DNA from: an uncultured Alphaproteobacteria bacterium
GTDB lineage: Bacteria > Pseudomonadota > Alphaproteobacteria > CAAHEQ01 > UBA3637
Direction of reading: 5' to 3'
NCBI GenBank assembly: GCA_944393195.1
Contig: CALXZG010000010.1
Span: forward strand, 1 to 43,839
DNA length: 43,839 nt
The position numbers and the translations under genes were made by a program. Each line of letters starts with the position of its first letter. The stretch's first letter is position 1. Below the pieces are notes generated by a model, which made no database searches, was not told the DNA's origin, and saw only the letters and a program-made list of their open reading frames with translations. Positions 2 to 38,121 of the stretch are shown in pieces.

Positions 2-733
2 TATCAACTATCGACAGGGGAATGTGTGACGGATTCACATCCGGAATGTGGTGATGGGGAGTTTTATAATGGACTCAGGGCTTCTTGTACAACTTGTCCA
101 ACAGAGGGAAATGCTGTCCAGAATAATCCGTCAGATATAGAGGATACGTGTGAAAAATGCGTAGGGTCGCGGCATGCTGGATATTATCCCAGCTATTGTG
201 TCTATTGTCCGAACGGTGTTGTGTGTGATGATCAATGTTGTGCTGAAGGACAAATGTGTCAACGTAGTGGTTCTTCTTATCCGTATACATATACCTGTGT
301 ATCCACATTAGGGGAAGGAGAATGTTGGACGAATGATGATTGCACAGGGGATAATCAATATTGCCAGAATGATTATGGTTGTGAAGTGACGGTTGGGACG
401 TGTGAAACAATTAGCAGCACGACGGTGACGATTAACGAGAAAACATACACGGCATCGACAGATCGTATGTCGTATCATGCGGCAGAGAACTTCTGTGATG
501 CGCTTGGGAAAAAATTAGCCCCGGTGACAGACGGGTGTACATCGGAAGAATTGGCGACGATTGAGAATTATGCTTCACGCAGTTGTACGGGGTGGGCGCA
601 CACGACGGGTAAGTGGTATTGGACAGCAACCAAATTAAGTGGGTGTACTTCGTATTATGTAGACAGTAGCAGTTCAGGCGCGGCCGGGGCGAGCCGTTGG
701 TACGACTTCTACCACTACGCCCTTTGTCGCTAA
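2..733 (+). CDS. Cys-rich secreted protein with C-terminal lectin-like domain (5' partial)
   Basis: The reading frame is open from the first bases of the window. The GTG at 26 is internal, because in-frame codons before it continue the same Cys-rich pattern (..STGEC), so the true start lies upstream. The first ~125 visible residues carry many cysteines in short CxxC-type spacings, like the EGF/stalk-type repeats of surface proteins. The last ~100 residues (MSYHAAENFCDALGKKL, then a WYWTATK strand, then ALCR at the end) resemble a C-type-lectin or formylglycine-enzyme-like fold, with Trp-rich strands and paired cysteines. The likely role is an exported binding protein; the ligand is unknown. 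The last six variable-looking codons (701-718) are all NNC, although Tyr is TAT in 15 of 16 earlier cases; see findings. A strong terminator follows at 766. The lectin-fold assignment rests on pattern only. Confidence 0.7.
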   Translation, partial: YQLSTGECVTDSHPECGDGEFYNGLRASCTTCPTEGNAVQNNPSDIEDTCEKCVGSRHAGYYPSYCVYCPNGVVCDDQCCAEGQMCQRSGSSYPYTYTCVSTLGEGECWTNDDCTGDNQYCQNDYGCEVTVGTCETISSTTVTINEKTYTASTDRMSYHAAENFCDALGKKLAPVTDGCTSEELATIENYASRSCTGWAHTTGKWYWTATKLSGCTSYYVDSSSSGAAGASRWYDFYHYALCR

Positions 734-765
734 GGTTCCCGCTTTTTGTGTGATAGGACAAGCGA

Positions 766-800
766 AACGGGGTGAAGAGGTGTTTCTTCGCCCCGTTTTT
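766..800 (+). terminator. Rho-independent terminator of the lectin-like gene
   Basis: AAACGGGG (766-773) pairs with CCCCGTTT (791-798). The stem continues inward with GAAGA against TCTTC, and a T run follows. It lies 33 bp after the stop codon. Confidence 0.85.
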
Positions 801-37375: not shown

Positions 37376-37421
37376 TGGAAAAGAGGGAATATGGTCCCGG
37401 CCGTGACAGACTTTTTTCCTC

Positions 37422-37450
37422 TTGTTTTTTCGGGTTGGGTGTGGTATACT
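37422..37450 (+). promoter_or_regulatory. Promoter of the tmRNA gene
   Basis: TTGTTT (37422-37427) and TATACT (37445-37450) are separated by 17 bp. The expected start is near 37457, just before the tmRNA acceptor piece. Confidence 0.75.
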
Positions 37451-37557
37451 AACCATGTTCGGCGCAAGTCGGACTATGATGCTAAACGAAAAGCGGAATA
37501 GGTGTAGTGGACTCGGGGGCGGTACCCGACACCTCCACCATTTTTTATGGGCATCTA

Positions 37558-37876
37558 TTGTTTCGGGCTTCGGCTTATGTCCTTTAAAATGGACACGGCG
37601 CCTTGCCCAAAAGCAATATCTGCCGCATAAAAACCCGGTCAACCCGCGAAGAGTGGGTATGGGACGGATAGTTGTTTCGGGCTTCGGCTTATGTCCTATT
37701 AAGTGGACACGGCGCCTTGCCCAAAAGCAATATCTGCCGCATAAAATCCGGTCAACCCACGAAGAGTGGGTATGGGATGGATAGTTGTTTCGGGCTTCGG
37801 CTTATGTCCTTTAAAGTGGACACGGCGCCTTGCCCAAAAGCAATATCTGCCGCATAAAAATCCGGTCAACCCGCGA
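37558..37876 (+). repeat. Three tandem copies of a 113-114 bp repeat inside the tmRNA intervening segment
   Basis: Copies start at 37558, 37672 and 37785 with TTGTTTCGGGCTTCGGC. The first two are full length and differ at a handful of positions. The third stops after about 92 bp, at CCGGTCAACCCGCGAG. Each contains a GTCC..GGAC hairpin (with changes confined to its loop) and CGGCGCCTTGCCC. The third copy's CCGGTCA (37862-37868) pairs with TGACCGG (37885-37891) just before the coding piece. The repeats lie wholly between the acceptor CCA and the coding piece 5' end. Confidence 0.9.
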
Positions 37877-37992
37877 GGGCGTAATGACCGGGCGGAGATT
37901 CTTTCGGGGGTGAAATAGGATCGACACGCATAGTAAAGGCTTTATCTTGCATTCGGCATGGTACCACCGTTATCGGGCTGAAAAAAATAAAC

Positions 37993-38031
37993 GCAAATGA
38001 TAATTTTGCTCCGGTGGCTTTGGCCGCTTAA
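37993..38031 (+). other. tmRNA tag-peptide reading frame
   Basis: From the resume codon GCA the frame reads ANDNFAPVALAA then TAA. With the alanine carried by the RNA, the tag is A-ANDNFAPVALAA. The AANDNFA start is the part contacted by alpha-type SspB, and the final LAA is the ClpX degradation signal, as in known tags. Confidence 0.92.
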
Positions 38032-38086
38032 CAGCGTCTGAAACACCAATCAATTCCCGAACAATTTGAGCGTTCGGGTGAGGCTT

Positions 38087-38121
38087 CCCGGGAGCCCAGC
38101 AACAGAATCCCGGGGCTTTTT
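38087..38121 (+). terminator. Terminator-like hairpin after ssrA
   Basis: CCCGGGA (38087-38093) pairs with TCCCGGG (38108-38114), then GCTTTTT. It ends 17 bp before the sspB ATG, so some read-through into sspB is likely needed unless a separate promoter exists. Confidence 0.65.

Follow-up and report, generated by a model that had tools for sequence, protein, structure and literature searches.

A lectin-like gene at a contig end as a probable trans target of a diversity-generating retroelement in an uncultured alphaproteobacterium

The window, that is, the whole stretch of 43,839 nucleotides analyzed here, is contig C10 of the draft genome of an uncultured alphaproteobacterium (24 contigs with a total of 1,153,272 bases; completeness, 88.6%). 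Its first open frame (positions 2 to 733 of the forward strand, 243 codons) lacks the 5′ end, which is cut by the contig start, and closes with a TAA stop codon at 731-733. Judged by its paralogues, the gene encodes a putative prepilin-like protein whose middle is rich in Cys and whose C-terminal domain (401-730) is lectin-like. Behind a TGG codon (698-700) come six NNC codons (TAC GAC TTC TAC CAC TAC; 701-718) and then GCC CTT TGT CGC (GCCCTTTGTCGC; 719-730), in exactly the frame, at the coordinates, and with the Ala-Leu-Cys-Arg ending reported by a first-pass annotation, which read the stretch as a target of a diversity-generating retroelement (DGR). That annotation also described a switch of Tyr codons from TAT to TAC. 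The switch holds, Tyr being TAC at 701, 710, and 716; the annotation counted 15 TAT codons among the first 16, and upstream of 701 we find 17 Tyr codons, 16 of which are TAT. Third-position C is found in 26 of the 230 codons before 692.

Alignment of 21 paralogues places the variable region (VR) at 674-718, with an approximate 5′ limit, and shows that the codon footprint begins at 692, ahead of the six NNC codons. Here AGC CGT (692-697) fills an NNC slot and an NNT slot, for which the predicted template is AAC AAT; for the codons at 701-718 it is AAC throughout, the last possibly being TAC. GCCCTTTGTCGC is the conserved 3′ end of the VR and stands in the position of an initiation-of-homing sequence, a function that it may also have. 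A hairpin with a 15-bp stem and a 4-nt loop (765-798, forward strand; z, −5.1) is located 35 nt 3′ of the VR and could equally well be a terminator or a DGR hairpin. GC-rich short palindromic interspersed elements (of the CCCCG..GCGGGGATGAC type) are present at about 826-850, 1078-1100, and 1126-1150 of the window and at L022:10-45; such elements adjoin lectin genes and also occur inside some 5′ coding ends (peptide KIPAFAGMT). Elsewhere in the window, at 37418-38117 of the forward strand, there is a permuted alphaproteobacterial tmRNA (Rfam alpha_tmRNA, 218 bits) that ARAGORN did not report; because it is spread over 700 bases, against a 355-position model, it must contain a long extra sequence.

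No Pfam family was matched in a search with the window protein. When a profile built from 24 domains of the family, taken from several genera, was compared with solved C-type lectins, the phospholipase A2 receptor was the best match (E = 1.4e-9), followed by LY75 and langerin, both below E 1e-3, and a profile made from the copies of this genome only matched the same lectin families with weaker E values. The VR thus lies within a C-type-lectin scaffold, as in DGR targets, and the C-terminal C-type-lectin fold proposed at first pass is borne out at the profile level. A single-sequence AlphaFold2 model of the lectin domain (pLDDT 45) was too poor and was not used for a fold search. Nearly all paralogues with a readable start carry a GRSMVEMLGVLAVMGVLSIGG-like prepilin segment with the motif G[RK]SMVEMLGVLA..., by which these N termini appear to be class III prepilin-like; the best Pfam N_methyl match has an E value of 0.12, under the cut-off, and the window copy lacks its 5′ end.

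The gene belongs to a large family. The stretch at 560-740 has 19 further strong copies in the same genome, and the pattern CGCCCTKTGTCGCT occurs at 20 places with at most one mismatch, compared with 2 for the reversed control pattern. A domain profile search of the genome returned 25 lectin-like loci and one short fragment, and 21 of these 25 paralogous C-type-lectin-like genes bear a clear DGR fingerprint. The copies sit at the 3′ ends of open frames, and the 21-copy consensus end, of which close variants occur among the paralogues, is TCA GGC GCG GTC GGG TCT NNC NNT TGG (NNC)5-7 GCC CTK TGT CGC, followed by a stop codon. The last part, GCCCT[TG]TGTCGC, is the conserved 3′ end of the VR across the paralogues; two more-distant copies finish in ALCH. 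The NNC run varies between five and seven codons in steps of one codon, and other lectin loops are variable between paralogues as well, without the NNC pattern. In 14 of the 21 VRs every codon fits NNC, and four family members (C4:366, C16:13845, C15:16753, and C2:75139) have eroded VRs. Family members in which the frame is short, the VR frame is shifted, or the NNC run is eroded are L176 (G000:C2:79000-81500), L175 (C2:74000-76500), L173 (C4:366-713), and L174 (C16:13845-14180); they are likely decaying targets. About nine contigs end near the lectin-gene repeats, which interrupt the assembly at the targets.

The codon statistics of these genes are those predicted if a template reading AAC AAT TGG AAC AAC... 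is copied with its adenines misread. In the 21 paralogues, C is the third base of 116 of the 124 codons behind the TGG slot (94%), compared with 14.1% upstream in the same genes and with 23.7 ± 4.3 codons expected from the synonymous usage of the genes themselves (binomial P of about 6e-88, a value that overstates independence, as the copies are related). The third position is C in 20 of 21 copies in slot 7, the exception being one TGG, and T in 19 of 21 in slot 8, the NNT codon before TGG. Paralogues differ pairwise at 70% of the predicted template-adenine sites and at 12% of the interleaved sites; likewise, first and second codon positions differ by 69% in the VRs and by 17% upstream. Thus, as judged from the paralogues, the genome's own template being unavailable, the genes possess a 3′-end VR that varies mainly at predicted template adenines, in agreement with the DGR-target reading of the first-pass annotation. 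Third positions in the VRs diverge by 14%, close to the synonymous background of 17% upstream, so that there is no sign of recent resetting and recent rewriting cannot be claimed.

One could imagine the same genes without any DGR, as lectin gene duplicates shaped by diversifying selection or by gene conversion, combined with a local bias for C-ending codons or a drifted AAC repeat. The single-codon steps in run length and the loops that vary without the NNC pattern would suit such an origin, but selection would hold neither 94% third-position C in genes that otherwise have 14% nor an NNT slot just before TGG. Moreover, relatives possess the template, Avd, and RT and show adenine-only changes; the cassettes of genomes G001, G003, and G041 largely refute this explanation, and we regard it as very improbable.

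Two genomes of the same genus (G001, locus L047; G003, locus L046) carry avd, a template (TR), an intact reverse transcriptase (RT) with the sequence YGRYVDD, and a VR; within the repeat of about 108 nt, their TRs and VRs differ by 10 and 11 substitutions, respectively, every one at A. The TR of the relatives is an AAC-rich stretch before the conserved end, located between avd and RT and directly preceding the latter. In the third genome, G041, which belongs to another genus of the same family, Avd is identified by PHROGs and Pfam, and so is the Avd of G003, there with a Pfam match under the cut-off. The TR of G041 reads ...GTCAACAACAACAATCGCAACAACAACAACTACGCGGTTTGTCGG. Its target is a homologous lectin gene on a different contig, which departs from the TR by a 3-nt insertion in the AAC run and by 20 substitutions, 14 of which are at A; of the six non-A changes, one is in the diversified stretch and five are in the last codons. 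The RT frame at this locus (G041:C69, L054, 987-2132) has one in-frame TAA after 163 codons, with the YxDD half downstream and with intact-looking avd and TR upstream.

Among 43 genomes of the family, RTs are present in 10 and related lectin domains in 27. Remote copies of the lectin target exist in G001 and in G019, and a run of N lies exactly inside the VR of such a target in the latter (G019:C6:4500-6500, L216), which is what a meeting of many alleles at this place would produce. G027, a 95% complete genome in which no RT was found, and G009, whose RT is of another type, both encode lectin prepilins with NNC runs. The G009 RT was rejected as the writer of the G009 lectin genes because its locus has no similarity to the targets. 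This second RT type (G009:C4, L203, 2944-4023; 30% identical) stands beside a large ATPase-like gene containing a CASWSASSN..-type stretch that is repeated in a small upstream frame; this arrangement resembles a further DGR, one whose target would be of an unusual AAA type. Named relatives of the RTs include Alphaproteobacteria metagenome-assembled genomes from deer and other ruminants.

In the window genome, a single RT matching Pfam RVT_1 was found, on contig C1, and no second one at E ≤ 1. It starts 67 nt 3′ of the stop codon of the C1 target copy, and its first ~213 residues share 47 to 48% identity with the G003 and G001 RTs and match positions 18-231 of a 427-position DGR-RT profile. The YxDD half is absent from every downstream frame, and a search of the rest of the assembly, run with no positive control, did not recover it; a reading of the tail past residue ~213 as a displaced C-terminal helix was unsupported by a profile search. 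A same-genus Avd query, which did recover the G003 Avd, found no avd in this genome, and an Rfam search around the C1 RT gave no match. The first-pass annotation, whose interpretation our analysis supports, placed the cassette elsewhere in the genome. A DGR-type RT remnant does lie on another contig, and AAC-bearing templates of the predicted kind exist in relatives; no near-identical sequence differing at A was found in the draft, whose incompleteness leaves room for a TR in the organism. The C1 target copy was rejected as the template because its own codons are diversified (AAA GAC GAC ATC AAC TAC). Directly before the RT, where relatives carry the TR, C1 has a target VR, which lacks the hairpin that follows the window target and the one at L004; such a picture would arise either from recombination between TR and VR or from repeats wrongly joined during assembly. 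Searches of genome_contigs with the target protein and of viral_contigs with the RT and the VR pattern returned no relatives, the latter giving no sign of a phage origin.

Taken together, the adenine-type imprint of this genome and its RT remnant, along with the homologous targets and complete avd-TR-RT cassettes of relatives, indicate that the window gene is a trans target of a DGR, one of about 25 prepilin-like/lectin paralogues whose last codons were rewritten in trans; from these sequence comparisons we assign this reading a probability of roughly 0.88. The template RNA would carry an AAC-rich stretch ahead of GCCCTTTGTCGC, the exact template of this strain being a prediction. An error-prone RT and its partner Avd would copy this RNA, misreading adenines, and the cDNA would replace the matching 3′ end of any of the target genes. 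In this way AAC would become NNC in the predicted binding face of the lectin, while TGG, TCT, and the third-position C would be kept. The products may be displayed on a pilus-like structure, and the lectins may bind ligands. The varying number of NNC codons counts against one template unless slippage occurs; slippage in (AAC)n, as between TR and VR of G041, could produce the codon-step differences, and so could the use of more than one template.

Given that neither a TR nor a complete RT was located, the array may be frozen. As a special case of rewriting in trans, the DGR could have made the imprint and then lost the TR, avd, and the catalytic half of the RT, leaving a fixed lectin repertoire subject to ordinary mutation and duplication. 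We lean slightly toward such a decayed cassette: the RT breaks off at about position 231 of 427 with its remainder missing, neither TR nor avd is in the draft, a target VR without the hairpin holds the place of the TR, four VRs are eroded, and G027 retains NNC-run lectin genes in a 95% complete genome without RT. Leftover targets are also kept by isolates of Treponema denticola, eight of which have targets but no RT/TR (PMC4891356). On the other hand, with an 88.6% complete assembly and some nine contig ends near the repeats, the C1 arrangement may be a chimeric join or a cassette may have been lost from the assembly, and the 14 VRs without any codon off NNC fit decay poorly. The breaks of the assembly at targets and the mostly pristine VRs favor an intact avd-TR-RT cassette that was left unassembled, or that sits on another element, and that rewrites the array at present, as do the intact cassettes in the same genus. 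Such ongoing activity is a serious but somewhat less probable alternative, given that there is neither a second RT at E ≤ 1 nor a matching phage contig and that third-position divergence is not below the synonymous background. Because the draft breaks at these very repeats, it does not settle the choice between a decayed and a missing cassette.

DGRs with multiple targets and orphan targets are already known; it is the number of targets and the prepilin-lectin architecture that stand out here. The cassettes of G001, G003, and G041 resemble the C1 locus in RT sequence (47 to 53% identity in the N-terminal half) and in having the TR before the RT, and their targets share a ...SSGAV..NNN..YALC-like C terminus, but they possess complete TR and avd (and an intact RT in G001 and G003) and few recognized targets per genome. 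The TvpA-type DGR of T. denticola likewise combines one TR/RT with several dispersed targets of the C-type-lectin fold and has leftover targets without TR/RT; its 2 to 7 targets per genome are FGE-sulfatase-type lipoproteins, whereas about 21 clear targets in the window genome encode prepilin-like proteins (PMC4891356). In cyanobacteria, 76 remote targets are distributed over 21 genomes (PMC7517822) and Trichodesmium has 18 target loci (PMC8867640); as in our family, these CLec genes carry the VR at their 3′ end; however, those targets are tied to signaling domains, and the cassettes are present in their genomes. According to work cited in PMC12632263, DGRs act on Bacteroides tip pilins, so that pilus-type binding proteins are diversified in gut bacteria there too; those are type V lipoprotein pilins, in contrast to the class III prepilin-like N termini suggested here by a motif. 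A literature search for DGR together with "prepilin," with poor coverage of subscription journals, gave no match.

The target count exceeds the 7 of T. denticola and the 18 loci of Trichodesmium. Surveys of RT-adjacent VRs miss remote targets (Roux et al., PMC8144416), and here a target family spread over the genome was reached from the codon footprint alone. We tentatively propose, at somewhat less than even odds, that a gut alphaproteobacterial lineage maintains prepilin-like lectins as very large repertoires written by a DGR (about two dozen genes in a genome of 1.15 Mb), that several members (the window genome, G027, and perhaps G009) have lost the writer, their formerly hypermutating array now being a fixed multigene family, and that slippage on templates rich in AAC shifts the run length in whole codons. 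The genomes that hold this family, some with the cassette and others lacking it, form a natural series in which the fate of DGR targets after loss of the writer may be followed.
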